33,346 nt of DNA from an uncultured Flavobacteriales bacterium (GTDB lineage Bacteria; Bacteroidota; Bacteroidia; Flavobacteriales_D; Sanyastnellaceae), in assembly GCA_938085105.1 (NCBI GenBank), contig CALKGK010000078.1:1-33346 (forward strand), written 5' to 3'. This document shows positions 21,369-30,286 of the stretch, one piece after another. A program made the position numbers and the translations under genes. Within the stretch, counting starts at the first letter, position 1; each line of letters starts with the position of its first letter. The notes below the pieces were generated by a model that was not told the DNA's origin, made no database searches, and saw nothing but the letters and a program-made list of their open reading frames with translations.

Positions 21369-21482
21369 TTCCTTGCAGGTCAAACGAAGAATTGCTGCTT
21401 TTTATCCTCCATCTACATCCTCCACAAAATCCCTCGAAATACTCAAATGCGATTCCGTAACTTGCCGTCTCAATCCTTTAGT

Positions 21483-24266
21483 ATGAGATCTCAGGAACAC
21501 GATAATAAACTTTTTCTTCTCGATGCTTATGCTCTCATTTTTCGAGCGTATTATGCCTTCATTCGCACCCCAAGAATCAATTCAAAAGGGCTAAACACCT
21601 CAGCGATGTTTGGCTTTACGAATGTGCTTTTGGACGTCATCAACAATGAAAAACCGTCTCACTTAGCCGTTGTTTTCGATCCTCCTGGGGGAAATTTCAG
21701 AAATGAAGTGTTCCCTGAGTACAAAGCCAATCGAGATGAAACCCCGGAAGACATCAAACTGTCGGTTCCACTCATCCATAAAATTCTTAAAGGTTTTGGG
21801 GTACCCACCATCGTGAAAGAAGGTTTTGAGGCGGATGACGTGATTGGACACATCGCTAAAATCGCAGAAAAGGAAGGCTATCTGACTTACATGATGACTC
21901 CTGATAAGGATTATGCTCAGCTCGTTTCGGAAAACATCTTCATGTTTCGCCCAGGAAGAAGCGGAAAACCACCAGAAATTTGGGGAGTACCTGAAGTAAA
22001 AGAACGCTTTGAAGTGGAACATCCCATGCAGGTGATTGACATCCTCGGTTTGCAGGGAGATGCTGTCGATAACATCCCCGGTATACCTGGAATTGGTGAG
22101 AAAACAGCCAAAAAGCTCATTGCGAAGTACGGAAGTGTTGAAGAGCTCATTGCGAACAGCCACGAACTCAAAGGCAAGCAGAAAGAAAACGTTGAGAATT
22201 TTGCAGAACAAGGGCTGCTTTCGAAACGTCTCGCCACAATCGTTACTGATCTTGACTATCAACCTGATTTTTCCGACATGGTCATGAGTCCAATGGACAA
22301 AGACCTTTTACGGGAAGTATTTGCAGAACTGGAATTTCGCACCTTGAGCAAGCGGGTTTTGGGTGAAGATCTCAGCGCGCCGGCTGAAGGAGAACAATTC
22401 TCTTTGTTTGGGGATGCCACCTCGAATGCTGACGATGAAGTAGCGGAAGTTCCTCAGGAGATGAAAACCATCGAAAACAGCGAGCACAACTACCATTTCT
22501 GCGACACTGAGGAAGCTCAAAAATCCCTTTTGGAGCAGCTTTTGAAGGTGAAAGAATACTGTTTTGATACCGAAACAAGTGAACTGGAAGCCATGGACGC
22601 TCAACTCGTGGGCATGTCGTTCTCCATTGCAGAAGGTGAAGCCTATTACGTGCCATTGATGGAGCGTCAGGCAGCAATCATGGAGGCCTTTTCTCCACTG
22701 TTTTTGGACGAAGAAAAAACCATGATTGGTCAGAATTTGAAATACGACCTGAAAGTTTTAGCGCGAAACGGTTATGAAGTTCGGAACAAGCTTTACGACA
22801 CCATGTTGGCGCACTACCTCATGAATCCTGACTCCAAGCACGGCATGGATTTTCTTTCTGAAACCTATCTGAACTACCGACCGGTGAGCATTGAAACCCT
22901 CATCGGTAAGAAGGGGAAAAACCAATTGAGCATGGCTGATTTGGAACCCAAGTCCATCTCCGATTATGCCTCTGAGGATGCTGACATCACCCTTCGCCTC
23001 AAAAACATCTTTGAAAAAGAAACCTCCCAAGATCCCATTAAAAAACTGTTCCACGAACTGGAGATCCCCTTACTTCGCGTGCTTTGCGACATCGAACAGG
23101 TTGGAGTGAATTTGGATGTAGAGACCTTGAAGGCGTATTCTTTGGAGCTCGGTGAGAAAGTCGACCGTTTGGAGGAAGAAATCCACAGTCTCGCTGGAGA
23201 GACTTTCAATGTAGACTCCCCGAAACAATTGGGGCCAATCCTTTTTGAAAAACTCGCCATTTCAAGCAAGGCGAAGAAGACAAAAACCGGTCAATACTCC
23301 ACCGGGGAAGATGTTTTAAGCAAGCACTTGAACGACCACGAGATTGTGCCTAAAATCCTTCAATACCGTCAACTTAAAAAATTGAAGTCGACCTACGTTG
23401 ACCCGCTTCCTACACTTGTGAATGCGAGCACGGGCAGATTGCACACCAACTACATGCAAACCGTAGCTGCCACTGGAAGATTGAGTTCCAACAATCCCAA
23501 TTTGCAAAACATTCCGATTCGAAGTGCTGAGGGGAGGGAAATTCGAAAAGCCTTTATTCCTCGGGACGATCAACACATATTACTCGCTGCAGATTACTCT
23601 CAGGTAGAATTGAGAATCATTGCGGCCTTGAGCAAAGATGAGGGTATGTGTTTGGCATTTAACGAAGGAAAGGACATTCACGCCGCTACCGCAGCGAAGG
23701 TGTTTGGGGTTCCCATTGAGGAAGTGGACCGCGAAATGCGCTCAAAAGCCAAAGCCGTGAATTTTGGAATCATCTATGGTCAGGGGGCCTTTGGTTTGGC
23801 TCAGAATCTGAACATTTCTCGGCGAGAGTCGAAGGAAATCATCGATCAATACTACAAGGAGTTCGCCAGTTTGAAAGCCTATCAAGACGCTAATATTGCC
23901 TTCGCCAAGGAGCATGGTTATGTAGAAACCATCATGGGTAGGAGAAGATATCTGAAAGACATCCACTCTAAAAATGCCGTTGTGCGAGGTTTTGCCGAGC
24001 GAAATGCCATCAACGCACCCATCCAAGGATCGGCAGCAGATGTGATTAAGGTAGCCATGGTGAATCTTCATCGCATTTTCAAAGAGCGCAATTTCAAATC
24101 AAAAATGATCATGCAAGTGCACGATGAACTTGTGTTTGACGCGCACAAGGATGAAATTGACATCATTTCACCCATCATTCAGAAAGAAATGGAGGGAGCG
24201 GTGAAACTTATTGTTCCTTTATCCGTAGAAATCGATCAAGGCCACAACTGGTTAGAAGCACATTGA
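21483..24266 (+). CDS. polA: DNA polymerase I
   Basis: 927 residues from the ATG at 21483, chosen because the conserved KLFLLDAYALIFRAYYAF begins nine residues in; an ATG at 21447 would add 12 residues. Three domains: the 5'-3' nuclease (1-300, with GIPGIGEKTAKKL helix-hairpin loop), the 3'-5' proofreading exonuclease (about 340-510) with Exo I FDTETSELE (Asp362, Glu364), Exo II GQNLKYDLKVL and Exo III YASEDADIT all intact, and the polymerase domain with palm motifs ADYSQVELR (Asp704) and QVHDELVFD (His880, Asp881, Glu882), plus the O-helix RSKAKAVNFGIIYGQGAFGL. Removes RNA primers and fills gaps. It is full-length with all three activities, unlike family members that have lost proofreading. 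Confidence 0.98.
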   Translation: MRSQEHDNKLFLLDAYALIFRAYYAFIRTPRINSKGLNTSAMFGFTNVLLDVINNEKPSHLAVVFDPPGGNFRNEVFPEYKANRDETPEDIKLSVPLIHKILKGFGVPTIVKEGFEADDVIGHIAKIAEKEGYLTYMMTPDKDYAQLVSENIFMFRPGRSGKPPEIWGVPEVKERFEVEHPMQVIDILGLQGDAVDNIPGIPGIGEKTAKKLIAKYGSVEELIANSHELKGKQKENVENFAEQGLLSKRLATIVTDLDYQPDFSDMVMSPMDKDLLREVFAELEFRTLSKRVLGEDLSAPAEGEQFSLFGDATSNADDEVAEVPQEMKTIENSEHNYHFCDTEEAQKSLLEQLLKVKEYCFDTETSELEAMDAQLVGMSFSIAEGEAYYVPLMERQAAIMEAFSPLFLDEEKTMIGQNLKYDLKVLARNGYEVRNKLYDTMLAHYLMNPDSKHGMDFLSETYLNYRPVSIETLIGKKGKNQLSMADLEPKSISDYASEDADITLRLKNIFEKETSQDPIKKLFHELEIPLLRVLCDIEQVGVNLDVETLKAYSLELGEKVDRLEEEIHSLAGETFNVDSPKQLGPILFEKLAISSKAKKTKTGQYSTGEDVLSKHLNDHEIVPKILQYRQLKKLKSTYVDPLPTLVNASTGRLHTNYMQTVAATGRLSSNNPNLQNIPIRSAEGREIRKAFIPRDDQHILLAADYSQVELRIIAALSKDEGMCLAFNEGKDIHAATAAKVFGVPIEEVDREMRSKAKAVNFGIIYGQGAFGLAQNLNISRRESKEIIDQYYKEFASLKAYQDANIAFAKEHGYVETIMGRRRYLKDIHSKNAVVRGFAERNAINAPIQGSAADVIKVAMVNLHRIFKERNFKSKMIMQVHDELVFDAHKDEIDIISPIIQKEMEGAVKLIVPLSVEIDQGHNWLEAH

Positions 24267-24274
24267 TGTAGGAA

Positions 24275-24321
24275 AAGAACTACACGTCTTTGTCTTTAAA
24301 CGAGAAGAGGTCGTAGTTTTT
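24275..24321 (+). terminator. Probable terminator after polA
   Basis: ACTAC (24279-24283) with following AC and TCTT pairs, with a bulge and a mismatch, with AAGA, GT and GTAGT (to 24317), followed by a T-run to 24321. It begins nine bases after the polA stop. The stem is imperfect. Confidence 0.5.
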
Positions 24322-24327
24322 GGTGTT

Positions 24328-24335
24328 TATCTTTG
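24328..24335 (+). promoter_or_regulatory. Promoter -7 box of the lipoprotein operon
   Basis: TATCTTTG matches all defined positions of TAnnTTTG. It lies just after the polA terminator and 93 bases before the lipoprotein start, implying a long leader that contains the hairpin at 24380-24400. No -33 element at the usual spacing. Confidence 0.5.
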
Positions 24336-24379
24336 TTCTGATGAACACCACTACTTTAAAAACTTTTAAGAATTAAACC

Positions 24380-24400
24380 CGTAGCTTCAAAAGAGCTACG
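24380..24400 (+). other. Hairpin in the leader of the lipoprotein operon
   Basis: CGTAGCT pairs perfectly with AGCTACG across a seven-base loop TCAAAAG. It lies in the predicted leader, about 28 bases before the start codon, without a following T-run. Confidence 0.4.
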
Positions 24401-24428
24401 TACTTTAACCTAGCCATAGTGCAACATC

Positions 24429-25361
24429 ATGAACACTAAAAGAAGTAATATGATCACCAAGAAATTGATCCACCTATCCTTGATTCTTGCTGTATCTGGA
24501 AGCGTCTTTTTAACCTCCTGCGGCGACAGCGGGCAGGGGCACGAAGAGAGTGCTTCACCAGAAATTTCAGTGAACGATCAAGAGGCCCAGGAGAATCCTG
24601 AGCGTAGAGAAGCTGTAAAGCAAATTTTCTACACCATTCCATCACCCATGGAAATGGCATCCTTGATTCGAAAGTCAGGAGCCGATTTCGATAGCAGCAT
24701 CCTCAATCCTACTGAAAAGTCTGAAGAGTACACCTCTGTGGCAAAACAAGCCCTCAACTTGGGAGTGTATGGAGCCGATTTGAGCTATGCGAGCATGTTT
24801 GACCAGCAACAGCAAAGCATTTTGTATTTGTCTGCCGCCCGTGGTCTTGCCAAAAAACTGAACGTCGAAGACGCCATCGATAACAACATTATTGAGCGTG
24901 TTAACGAAAACCGCAACAACCGCGATTCTTTGCTCACCATTGTGAGTGATGCCTACTGGTCTTTGAATGGTTACCTCAAAGAAGGAGAGCGCGAAGAAGT
25001 TTCTGCTTTGGTGATTGTTGGAGGATGGGTTGAAGGACTCTACCTTGCAACAAGCCATGCTACCCCAGACAACGAGGCTTTGAATCAGCGTATTGCTGAA
25101 CAAAAGTATTCTCTGAAAGATCTTATTGCCCTTGTGAGCAGTTATGATAATGCTGAAGATTTAGCTCCAGTGAAGGCGGATTTGATGGAAATTCAAGCCC
25201 TCTTCAATCAAGTGGAAATAAATAAAGAGAAAACTGAAACTTCTAAGGACGAGAGCGGTACAATGGTTATAGGTGGTGCATCTAGCACCAATGTATCTGT
25301 TGCTACCATGGAGAGCATTCAAGCTAAAATTCAAGAAGTACGCAATCAATACATCCAGTAA
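24429..25361 (+). CDS. Uncharacterised lipoprotein, first gene of a two-gene module
   Basis: 310 residues. Type II signal: basic n-region, LIHLSLILAVSGSVFL, and lipobox LTSC, so it is a membrane-anchored lipoprotein. A second in-frame ATG at 24450 would give a shorter, more usual signal. After an acidic linker the mature part is mostly helical and Gln/Glu/Asn-rich; recognisable segments are REAVKQIFYTIPSPMEMASLI, LGVYGADLSYASMFDQQQQ, and EEVSALVIVGGWVEGLYLAT. The last 50 residues look like a Ser/Thr linker and a short helix. I do not recognise a characterised family or catalytic motif. The next gene starts 13 bases after the stop and the pair is bounded by terminators, so both products probably act together in the envelope. 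Confidence 0.8.
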   Translation: MNTKRSNMITKKLIHLSLILAVSGSVFLTSCGDSGQGHEESASPEISVNDQEAQENPERREAVKQIFYTIPSPMEMASLIRKSGADFDSSILNPTEKSEEYTSVAKQALNLGVYGADLSYASMFDQQQQSILYLSAARGLAKKLNVEDAIDNNIIERVNENRNNRDSLLTIVSDAYWSLNGYLKEGEREEVSALVIVGGWVEGLYLATSHATPDNEALNQRIAEQKYSLKDLIALVSSYDNAEDLAPVKADLMEIQALFNQVEINKEKTETSKDESGTMVIGGASSTNVSVATMESIQAKIQEVRNQYIQ

Positions 25362-25374
25362 AAAGAACAGAACG

Positions 25375-25809
25375 ATGAAGTATTTAAAATATATCCTCCC
25401 TATTCTCGTCATGTTGCCATTGGCTGCGTTCAGTCAGTGCAGAAGCTTCACCAAAAAGAAGTGCCTGCCTCAGCTTGAGGGTTACATTCAGAACGACAAC
25501 TTCAACAGTGCCGTTCTTATTCCTGGCGATGAAGCTGAATTACTCCTCACTTTTTATGCCGACAAAGAATACCGTCTTTTGGTATGTGGCCACCCCGTTT
25601 TGGGCGATTTGGAATTCGAGATTCTCGATACCGATGAGGAGCTGATTTACAGCAACAAAGACAACGAAGAAAATAAAAGCTCCTTTGACTTTAAAGTAGC
25701 GAGCACTCAACAACTCATTGTGAGGATTCGTGTACCGGAGTCTGAAACCACTGGCGCACTGATCCATGAAGGATGCGTGTCCGTAATGATTGGTTCCAAA
25801 GAGAGCTAG
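25375..25809 (+). CDS. Uncharacterised small exported protein with four conserved-looking cysteines
   Basis: 144 residues. Signal peptide ILPILVMLPLAAFS with cleavage near residue 20 or 21. The mature part has four cysteines, at Cys22 and Cys30 and in LLVCGHPVLG and HEGCVSVMIG, which could form two disulfides. Cys22 is preceded by Gln, so it is not a lipobox. The region from 40 on is beta-rich (AELLLTFYADKEYRLLVC, LEFEILDTDEELIY, QQLIVRIRVPE) and suggests a small beta-sandwich. An upstream in-frame start at 25273 lies inside the lipoprotein gene and is not supported. It follows the lipoprotein gene by 13 bases and is followed by a terminator. No known function recognised. Confidence 0.8.
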   Translation: MKYLKYILPILVMLPLAAFSQCRSFTKKKCLPQLEGYIQNDNFNSAVLIPGDEAELLLTFYADKEYRLLVCGHPVLGDLEFEILDTDEELIYSNKDNEENKSSFDFKVASTQQLIVRIRVPESETTGALIHEGCVSVMIGSKES

Positions 25810-25827
25810 AACAAATTTATTGACGAT

Positions 25828-25864
25828 AAAAGCCGTTTCTCTTTTGGGAGGAGCGGCTTTTTTT
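25828..25864 (+). terminator. Terminator of the lipoprotein operon
   Basis: AAAAGCCGTTTCTC pairs with GAGGAGCGGCTTTT around a TTTTGG loop, 14 base pairs with two G-T wobbles, ending in a seven-base T-run. It lies 18 bases after the stop. Confidence 0.88.
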
Positions 25865-27505: not shown

Positions 27506-27952
27506 ATGAAAAAGCTTAACTCATTATTATTCCTCGCCCTGACGGCTATTCTCATCTCATTCACTTCTTGCAAAAAGGAAGAAGGATGCACTGATCCTAA
27601 TGCTACATCATACGACTCAGAAGCCGAAGTGGATGATGGCTCTTGTACTTACCAAGGAGAGGTTGTTTTCTGGTATGGACAATCCACCTCTGAAGGAATG
27701 ATCGATTTTGATTCCAACAGTTTGACCTTCTATGTAGACGGCGCAGTCGTTGGTTCGACATCATCATCTGTTTACTGGACCTCAGCCCCAGATTGTGGTG
27801 ATAACGCCTCGATTACCGTTACTGAAAATTTAGGAAACGTAAAATCACGTAGCCTCACTTATAGTGTTGAAGACCAAGATGGCTATGTCCTTTGGAGCGA
27901 TATTGCCAACTTCGAAGCCAATTCTTGCCAAGAGATTGAACTGGTGTGGTAA
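27506..27952 (+). CDS. Small lipoprotein with a CTDP...DDGSC motif
   Basis: 148 residues. Type II signal (SLLFLALTAILISFTSC, lipobox FTSC) makes it a membrane-anchored lipoprotein. Immediately after it, EEGCTDPNATSYDSEAEVDD and then GSCTY is the C-T-D-P-x-A-x-x-Y...D-D-G-S-C motif, a short acidic two-cysteine element common as single or repeated copies in Bacteroidota surface proteins. The rest is beta-rich with two more cysteines near the C-terminal half (APDCGDN, NSCQEIELVW). Ligand unknown; metal binding by the acidic loop is plausible but not shown. It is a single gene between a promoter-like site and a strong terminator, divergent from the Xre regulator. Confidence 0.8.
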   Translation: MKKLNSLLFLALTAILISFTSCKKEEGCTDPNATSYDSEAEVDDGSCTYQGEVVFWYGQSTSEGMIDFDSNSLTFYVDGAVVGSTSSSVYWTSAPDCGDNASITVTENLGNVKSRSLTYSVEDQDGYVLWSDIANFEANSCQEIELVW

Positions 27953-28033: not shown

Positions 28034-30112
28034 CTATTCCAAAATCAAGCGCTTGCTCACGCGTTTTCCATCCATCTCCATCACCACGAAATAAAGTCCG
28101 GATGAAAGTGCACTGCCGTCCAAATCCCACTGATGAGACCCTACAGGCAAAGCGTTATTATAAATCTGGGTTACCACTCTTCCGGTGGCATCTGTGAGGT
28201 AAATCAATGCATCGTTCACCGCACTTTGATTTTCAAATTTCAAGCTCGTTCTTCCTTCTGAGGGGTTGGGGAACAATACAATGCTGTTTTCCAAAGACTC
28301 AATGTCGTTCACATCCACCGTATTCACGTAAATGTTGATGTCGTCTAAGTAGAAATTATTTCCTCCCCGACCTTCAAAATAAAATTTAAAGCGAAGGTTA
28401 TCGGTAAGGTCTTCCAAGTCGTCAAAAAAGATCGTGTTGGTAACCCACTCATCAGCATCCGGAACAAAATTTCCGTTGGTTGGACTAGTTGTTGGCAGGT
28501 CGCTATAGCCACGGTGTTGTTTTCTGAGTGTCCAAGTCTCGCCGCAATCGGAAGAGAAGTAAATTCGGAAACGATCATCGGTTTCATTGAATTTGCTCGC
28601 ATAGGCCCAAGAGTACTCCAAAGCCACAACGGAAGCCGATGTACCGTTAAATGTGCGCGTCATGAGCTCGTCGATATTAAATTCGACGTTGTTGTTTCTG
28701 TTTTCTAAACGAAGCGAACGCGATCCTGTTTGAGCAGCCAAAGTGCTCACTTCAAAAGTCATGTCGTCTGCTGGGTTGTTGACGAAATACAAGTCTGTTC
28801 CAAGTCCATTCTCAAAACCTTCCACAAAAGGAAAATCTTGTTCTGCTTGGTCCAAGACCAGCAAGAATTCTTCTTTGGTTTCCTCTACCGTTTCAAATCC
28901 ATTTCCTGTATTCAGGGTAATGGTGTACAAGCCTGGCTCTGTAAACACATGAACTGGATTTTGATGTACTTCTACATCTTCACCAACGATGGTTGTTCCA
29001 TCTCCCAAATCCCAGGTCCAAGAATTATTCCCATTGAACGATTGATCCATGAACTGCACTTCTTCACCAACACAAACCACTCGTCGGTTCACATCAAAAT
29101 CTGCAGCACAAAGCACCGGTTCTTCGTCAAACACTCCAGTATCAATCAAGTTTTGTGTGGTCCACAACTCGTTTCGATCTGCCACTCCGCTGTAAGCTGC
29201 GGCTCTCATTCGGGTGCGTTGATCTTGGGTGAACATTCGAGAACAGTACGAATATTCCATATAGTTCTGAACGTTATCTAGAGAACCGCAAGACTCTCCA
29301 TCCAAGTTGCAGGTGGTCCAACCAATGGTAAGCGGTGTATCATCTACTCCATCATCATCAAAGCAATTGTTTTCTACTGCCGGTTCGTTGGTTCCTCCCC
29401 AAAGGTGACGAAGATTGAGCCAGTGTCCAATTTCGTGTGTCAAGGTTCTCGAACGGGTAACGGAACTCGTTCCAATGGACCCTGTATAGTTGTGAAGAAG
29501 TACAATTCCATCCTGATCTTGCAACCATCCATTGTTTACAGATCCTGGCAAATAGGTATAACCTGCAGCTCCGCCTGCATCCTTACACACCCAAACATTC
29601 ATGTACATGTCCCGAGGCCAAAAAATGAGGTCTTTCATTTGTGATCCACCTTCATTGGTAAGCGGACTAAATATGCGATTGATCCCTTTCGTACAATTGC
29701 CTTCAGGATCGCGCTGTGCTAAACGAAATTCGATATTGATGTCTGCAATGAGATCAACAAACTCATCCACCACTTGCAAGGTATCTGGGTTTTGCTTTCT
29801 AAAATCTCGGTTCACGATGCGCAGGCAATCGAGTACCTGTTCATCGCTAATGTTTTCAGCCCCCCCTTCATGGATGATATGAAAGACAACAGGAATAATG
29901 AGGGTTTCTTCTCCCCCACCTCTTTCCTGAGCAAAAGCACGTGTTTCTTCTTCCAGTTGTTCATGGGCTTCCTGCGCCTCACGTTGTAATTCCGGGAAAT
30001 GTCTAAAGAGCTTTTCTGTTTGCTCTGTTTGTCCGCAATACTTAACATCTTGGGCGAATGCCGCAGAAAGACAAAAAGTACACAACACGAAAGTCAGGAT
30101 TTTATTCATCAT
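28034..30112 (-). CDS. M43 (pappalysin-like) zinc metalloprotease with PKD and T9SS type A domains
   Basis: 692 residues from the ATG at 30112, directly before a signal peptide (ILTFVLCTFCLSAAFAQ). A prodomain-like helical stretch (20-70) precedes the catalytic domain (about 75-300), which has VVFHIIHEGG, the extended zinc motif HEIGHWLNLRH (His226, Glu227, His230, His236) and the Met-turn NYMEYSYC. Next come a PKD domain (about 336-420), a MAM/choice-of-anchor-J-like domain (about 428-600, EGFENGLGTDLYF, FYLDDINIYV), and a T9SS type A domain (605-692, IVLFPNPSEGRT and SSGLYFVVMEMDGKRVSKRLI). It is predicted to be secreted and surface-anchored and to cut proteins outside the cell. An in-frame start at 30151 is less likely. 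Confidence 0.93.
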   Translation of the reverse strand: MMNKILTFVLCTFCLSAAFAQDVKYCGQTEQTEKLFRHFPELQREAQEAHEQLEEETRAFAQERGGGEETLIIPVVFHIIHEGGAENISDEQVLDCLRIVNRDFRKQNPDTLQVVDEFVDLIADINIEFRLAQRDPEGNCTKGINRIFSPLTNEGGSQMKDLIFWPRDMYMNVWVCKDAGGAAGYTYLPGSVNNGWLQDQDGIVLLHNYTGSIGTSSVTRSRTLTHEIGHWLNLRHLWGGTNEPAVENNCFDDDGVDDTPLTIGWTTCNLDGESCGSLDNVQNYMEYSYCSRMFTQDQRTRMRAAAYSGVADRNELWTTQNLIDTGVFDEEPVLCAADFDVNRRVVCVGEEVQFMDQSFNGNNSWTWDLGDGTTIVGEDVEVHQNPVHVFTEPGLYTITLNTGNGFETVEETKEEFLLVLDQAEQDFPFVEGFENGLGTDLYFVNNPADDMTFEVSTLAAQTGSRSLRLENRNNNVEFNIDELMTRTFNGTSASVVALEYSWAYASKFNETDDRFRIYFSSDCGETWTLRKQHRGYSDLPTTSPTNGNFVPDADEWVTNTIFFDDLEDLTDNLRFKFYFEGRGGNNFYLDDINIYVNTVDVNDIESLENSIVLFPNPSEGRTSLKFENQSAVNDALIYLTDATGRVVTQIYNNALPVGSHQWDLDGSALSSGLYFVVMEMDGKRVSKRLILE

Positions 30113-30286
30113 CTTCTTCAAAGGTTCTTGCAAGCCGTGAAAATAGCTCACAATTATTACAATTCTAGATCAAAACACCCTAACACTAGGGTTTCTATGC
30201 CTTGGGCATCATCGTGTTCAAAGACTTCATTTCAAGCTTCTCGAAACACTAGCATTGAAACAATGATCTTCCTTTGATGTTTCAAA

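Follow-up and report, generated by a model that had tools for sequence, protein, structure and literature searches.

Half transporters of the ABCG1/White class carry their ATPase before the membrane domain in one chain, an arrangement shared by T, the ABCG-type protein considered here. Unlike these half transporters, T has a TerB-like N-terminus and ~235 residues between its last two hydrophobic segments, and it is co-inherited with a lipoprotein, A, and a GOLD-like protein, B; it scores 254 against TIGR00955, for which the cut-off is 736. The predicted beta-sandwich fold of B resembles that of GOLD proteins (p24/TMED, SEC14-like) and of PPC/collagen-binding domains, from which B differs as a stand-alone exported bacterial protein that has a co-conserved cysteine pair and is paired with a lipoprotein. 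A third comparison is with SiaABC of Pseudomonas aeruginosa, in which, as far as set out in PMC7647112, SiaA and SiaB set the phosphorylation of SiaC. Homologues of SiaB, SiaC and a SpoIIE-like phosphatase are found beside T in many loci. The P. aeruginosa system includes, by the same account, the diguanylate cyclase SiaD (PMC7647112), whereas here the recurrent neighbour is an ABC exporter, and the Sia genes are not beside the A-B pair that we analysed. No description of T or of an A-B-T system was recognised in the literature searched, which covered few subscription journals.

An exported protein pair downstream of polA

The pair lies in a 33,346-nt stretch of DNA from an uncultured Flavobacteriales bacterium; this whole stretch is referred to as the window. 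The following features were placed in it by inspection of the sequence and comparison with homologues, by terminator scanning and folding, by comparison of neighbourhoods and by AlphaFold2 modelling.

21447..24266, + strand: polA, a conserved neighbour upstream of pairs of this type (type 1, below), given as context outside the module
24328..24335, + strand: promoter-like -7 box TATCTTTG of the TAnnTTTG type, kept in the congener G001
24450..25361, + strand: A, a predicted 303-aa helical lipoprotein, the polA-linked (type 1) paralogue
25375..25809, + strand: B, a predicted 144-aa exported protein with a GOLD/PPC-like beta sandwich and cysteines at 22, 30, 71 and 134
25828..25861, + strand: intrinsic terminator, a 15-pair stem followed by a T run

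The open reading frame of A spans 24429-25361 (+), within which ATG 24450 was picked as the start from the signal sequence. A lipobox cysteine after this signal sequence predicts that A is a bacterial lipoprotein: C24 is invariant in 98/98 aligned A proteins, and 95 of them have S, G or A at position -1, as in a lipobox. Residues +2 to +6 after the cysteine, checked for a surface-export signal, hold a mean of 1.45 acidic residues. The AlphaFold2 model (mean pLDDT 84.7) has a helical body and one beta hairpin, in keeping with the helical lipoprotein of the original prediction. Foldseek found nothing at E 0.001 or better among solved structures for this model, and the top VIA match, a designed protein (Z 7.2, rmsd 4.8, 153 aligned), was set aside as uninformative because it may reflect only a common helical arrangement in a helical protein. 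The modelled fold of A is without a convincing solved-structure match, which does not make it new.

A fell below every Pfam and NCBIfam cut-off, and scanning 98 A homologues singly against both collections gave scattered weak matches only. SLATT_6 was rejected as an identity for A (16.1 bits against a curated cut-off of 27.1; 1/98 members at E 0.01). A SLATT/defence role was dropped, the scores being under the cut-offs and the PADLOC match weak; the PADLOC matches of T sit in its ATPase region.

B starts 13 nt past the stop of A and carries what appears by eye to be a Sec-type signal. It lies below every Pfam and NCBIfam cut-off (two members were scanned against NCBIfam), and 95 B homologues run one by one against Pfam gave scattered weak matches only. 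The view of A and B as neighbouring exported proteins of undescribed families is borne out by these coordinates and searches, in which no known family of unrelated function reached its cut-off for either protein.

The AlphaFold2 model of B contains eight strands (pLDDT 83.7). It matches the GOLD domain of TMED1 (7rrm) with Z 9.7 and rmsd 2.8 over 95 aligned residues, 5gu5 with Z 9.5 and rmsd 2.9 over 96, a subtilase sandwich domain with Z 9.1, a collagenase sandwich domain with Z 8.8, and the PPC structure 5sv5 with Z 7.5 and rmsd 3.0 over 90. Model and structure comparison point to a beta-sandwich body, as originally predicted, and to a fold of the GOLD kind, with other sandwich families scoring close. 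No PF01105 (GOLD) or PPC sequence match was found among the 95 B members at E 0.01; a PDB profile search with the B alignment gave 5dz8 (BspA) as its best match (2.9e-4 over 66 positions).

The four cysteines of B had been thought suited to disulfides, and their conservation agrees. Of the 95 homologues, 88 have Cys22 together with Cys134 and 7 have neither; no protein keeps just one, as would be expected if the two form a disulfide. For the regions of Cys30 and Cys71, 58 homologues have both filled, 15 just one and 22 neither.

The box TATCTTTG is a perfect match to TAnnTTTG, which we take to be the -7 box consensus and against which it was scored. There are 25 such matches in the window against 22.35 expected, a chance-level count that 31/100 shuffles reach. 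In G001 the box is retained although the flanking bases differ, and this conservation is better support for a promoter than the number of matches in the window. A sigma-70 promoter scan is ill-suited to this phylum. At the other end of the pair, the scan and folding recovered the strong terminator that had been predicted. A second predicted terminator, that of polA, is doubtful: a hairpin folds at 24275-24321, between polA and the -7 box, but the terminator scan found none 3' of polA and nothing resembling the hairpin was noticed by eye in G001. The A leader holds two further hairpins, a short one at 24322-24349 that overlaps the -7 box and another short one at 24380-24400 with a tight stem, which folds in G001 as well despite base changes.

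A and B are duplicated and kept as pairs

The original prediction mentioned a similar pair elsewhere in the phylum, and such pairs were found in named loci. Among 60 relatives, A was present in 54 genomes and B in 52, and 89/90 B matches followed a same-strand A match at a distance of 10-279 nt. The sole B match without an A, in G011, is on a contig with foreign-looking ORFs and is still counted. In the first table 23/112 A matches had no B match; after longer stretches had been fetched and the B profile iterated, 75/81 A ORFs adjoined a B across the 80 fetched loci plus the window. Two of the six B-less A ORFs are pieces of a single A frame, in L075. The others comprise L133 and L134, where A without a detected B stands beside pyrR- and pyrB-like genes (by eye), L066, where an A-like lipoprotein without a detected B is located elsewhere than in that context, and L135, where an unrelated 330-aa ORF follows A. 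Chance does not account for the pairing of A and B. In L075 (7955-8886, G049) the A homologue is split over two overlapping frames and is apparently broken.

Pair types were set by neighbour clustering and labelling, with gene names other than that of T read from the sequences. Type 1, which includes the window pair, lies below polA and accounts for 23/75 pairs; polA is upstream on the same strand, ~3 kb away in 22 and at 1.5 kb in one partial case. The most frequent type is type 2 (29/75), in which the pair has the ~1035-aa transporter T in the same locus. Six pairs lie by thrS and infC (type 3), five by a DHH-like gene or ndk (type 4), and the remaining 12/75 fall outside these types. Near thrS-infC-rplT-like genes, one A is followed by three B genes in L268 (4977-7396) and by two in L269 (4449-6300).

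Two further genes were noted in the window. On the - strand, 28034-30151 encodes a secreted M43 peptidase with PKD and a Por secretion tail; its relatives lie downstream of the pair on the opposite strand in 15 loci, all of type 1. On the + strand, 27506-27952 is a small lipoprotein-like ORF with a CTDPNATSYDSEAEVDDGSC stretch, for which all Pfam matches were below cut-off.

Trees of A (built carefully) and of B (built quickly) each had 74 rows, the partial L137 pair being dropped. Neighbourhood labels change 13 times along the A tree and 11 times along the B tree, against a shuffled mean of 37.9 for both. As the labels cluster far beyond the shuffles, the pairs were evidently duplicated and kept as units; L079, on a long branch in both trees, falls inside type 2 in the B tree and outside it in the A tree. 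Within type 1, A and B distances remain correlated after polA distances are removed (partial Mantel r 0.33, p 0.02, 22 loci), a modest result. Several paralogous pairs arose by duplication as units, and the window pair is among them. The other pair of the genome, A2-B2, is directly upstream of T and is itself preceded by a 517-aa gene.

The recurrent neighbour is a predicted ABCG-type transporter

The T gene of the window genome was identified by domain search.

L062 5893-9003, - strand: T, a predicted ABCG-type exporter with a TerB-like N-terminus

Its domains are ABC_tran (272-423), ABC2_membrane (572-792) and a weak TerB match (24-137). Both ABC_tran and ABC2_membrane are found in 22/22 aligned T members, and the order of ATPase before membrane domain in a single chain would place T in the ABCG type. 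T aligns with human ABCG1 over residues 270-785 (E 3e-43). The TerB family (PF05099) is matched at E 0.05 or better by 11/22 T members, at best with 4.5e-7, while T of the window genome, at 15.4 bits, falls short of the 24.4-bit cut-off. Hydrophobic segments of T start at 591, 630, 678, 705, 737 and 992, and the stretch between the last two is predicted to form a long extracytoplasmic loop. At one, slightly lower hydropathy cut-off, 13/22 members have six segments and 9/22 have five; the long gap before the last segment is present in 22/22.

In 80 named T loci the order is A-B-T in 54, A-T in 3, B-T in 2 and T-A in 1, and 20 have no A or B nearby, some being cut by contig ends. Carriers of A-B-T include Crocinitomix catalasitica (L157), Brumimicrobium salinarum (L172) and a Fluviicola MAG (L166). 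A SiaC homologue occurs in 26 of the 80 loci and a SiaB homologue in 22. In L265 (6700-13929, -) and L079 (501-9500, +), SpoIIE-SiaB-SiaC-T-A-B follow one another on one strand, a gene run suggesting that an ABC exporter is coupled to a phospho-switch. The 19 loci that contain a SiaC-cluster gene include no type 1 locus.

T is mostly retained where only a window-type pair remains

Eighteen relatives have a single A match that resembles the A of the window, the type being assigned by similarity. Nine were fetched with long flanks, and polA was upstream in eight, L084 being the exception. T is kept in 16/18, on a different contig; the relatives that carry A and B without a detected T are G008 (87% complete) and G012 (99%). 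In the fetched stretches of the 13/16 T loci inspected (L252-L264), neither A nor B was found beside T. In 11/13 of them the gene immediately before T is homologous to the 517-aa gene (E 1e-110 or better), T being located elsewhere in L253 and L260, and a SiaC homologue then follows T in 12/13, the contig of L256 ending there. Since the order of the 517-aa gene and T is kept with no A or B beside T, the T-linked pair was lost while T and the window-type pair were retained. Retention of T after loss of A2-B2 is predicted if the remaining pair serves T in trans, and is also compatible with a T that needs no pair.

A, B and T are mostly present or absent together

Of the 60 relatives, 52 have both A and T, six have neither, two have A only and none has T only; T, present in 52, mostly gives one match per genome. 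We then counted 295 class genomes at thresholds of E 1e-5 for A, E 1e-5 for B and E 1e-60 for T, finding A in 165, B in 155 and T in 157 (by genus, A in 75/156 and B in 68/156). All three were present in 148 genomes and none in 129. The 18 mixed genomes comprise seven with A and B (G081, 91% complete; the other six, 60-83%), eight with A and T, two with A only (G104, 95%; G265, 68%) and one with T only (G314, 92%). Incompleteness does not account for the missing B of the eight genomes with A and T, none of which is less than 98% complete. In two of them, G143 and G164, all A matches are weak, and B stayed undetected in G080, G251 and G143 when the search was relaxed to E 0.01. Some lineages that retain A and T therefore lack B or have one that can no longer be recognised.

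Fisher's test for A against T gives p = 1.6e-71, which overstates the evidence because the genomes are related. Better evidence comes from concordant absences within the families f9 (G044, G274, G300, G325) and f17 (G063), where all three genes are absent and other sampled members have them. In a phylum-wide sample of 198 genomes, all at least 90% complete and overlapping the class sample, A was found in five, with full-length T in the same five, all already in the class sample. T matches numbered 7/198; those of G460 (residues 247-794 only) and G498 (265-787 only) are probably other ABC exporters. The presence of A in only 5/198 may be why the system went unnoticed.

Proposed role of the pair

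The pair had been put forward as a self-contained two-part module. This is not supported: the commonest paralogue type in the fetched loci is linked to T, and the presence of A and B in class genomes largely follows that of T. The pair resembles a satellite belonging to a three-part system more than a closed unit of two parts. Because A and B are nearly always together and usually in T-carrying genomes, they are probably the outer partners of T. We lean towards this reading with moderate confidence, taking A and B as putative extracytoplasmic partners of an ABCG-type exporter that the window pair would serve in trans. Its computed basis is that A and B are co-encoded, co-duplicated and co-inherited, that the commonest type has the order A-B-T, and that presence largely coincides.

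Such a system could work as follows. Lipidated A, on the periplasmic or outer-membrane side, would hold a disulfide-stabilised B, and the A-B complex would dock on the long loop of T and accept or gate exported cargo, perhaps hydrophobic or lipid-like if ABCG exporters are a guide. The window pair would be a stand-alone type 1 copy working with the single T encoded elsewhere in the genome, alongside the T-linked pair or, where the latter has been lost, by itself. Cytoplasmic control of the exporter may come from the SiaB/SiaC phospho-switch encoded beside T. More tentatively, and rather unlikely in its entirety, A-B-T would be an undescribed, phospho-switch-controlled ABCG-like export system, widespread among environmental Bacteroidota, in which paralogous pairs are interchangeable adaptors, each with its own cargo, for one shared exporter.

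Several observations argue against a partnership with T: the near-complete G012 and the less complete G008 carry A and B with no detected T, the class sample holds 18 mixed genomes, 20/80 named T loci show no A or B nearby (some cut by contig ends), and types 1, 3 and 4 are not beside T. Both the unlinked types and the pair kept by G012 would follow if A and B made up an envelope complex of their own, with a structural or ligand-binding function for instance, adjacency to T being incidental and co-occurrence due to the shared ancestry of lineages. Gene numbers favour that explanation too, with up to 8 A copies and at most 3 T matches per genome, as do the two or three B genes behind one A in L269 and L268. 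It is harder to reconcile with the concordance of A, B and T in 277/295 class genomes, including the absences in f9 and f17, and with the retention of T in 16/18 relatives that have only the window-type pair; we regard it as a credible but lesser possibility.

The Sia genes beside T (SiaC in 26/80 and SiaB in 22/80 named loci) and the single-strand runs of L265 and L079 would also suit a sensing role, in which A-B reports the state of the envelope or cargo through T, mainly a transducer, to SiaB/SiaC. The ABC_tran and ABC2_membrane domains of all 22 aligned T members and the lack of type 1 among the 19 SiaC-cluster loci speak against this, and we consider it improbable. Least probable by far is that B, tethered by A, inhibits an enzyme in the periplasm in the manner of the lysozyme inhibitor PliG. 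This reading draws on the top Foldseek match of the B model, PliG 4dzg (E 1.6e-5; VIA Z 8.4), but the GOLD, subtilase and collagenase sandwich domains score equally well or better (Z 9.7, 9.1 and 8.8), no inhibitor family appears among the Pfam matches of the 95 B members at E 0.01, and the link to T is left unexplained.

Whichever of these roles applies, the A-B pair is real and conserved, and no description of it was recognised in the sources searched. Both families lie below Pfam and NCBIfam cut-offs, yet they occur in about half of the sampled class genomes. If our reading is right, they would be the exchangeable adaptor pairs of an envelope export system found in a major environmental phylum.
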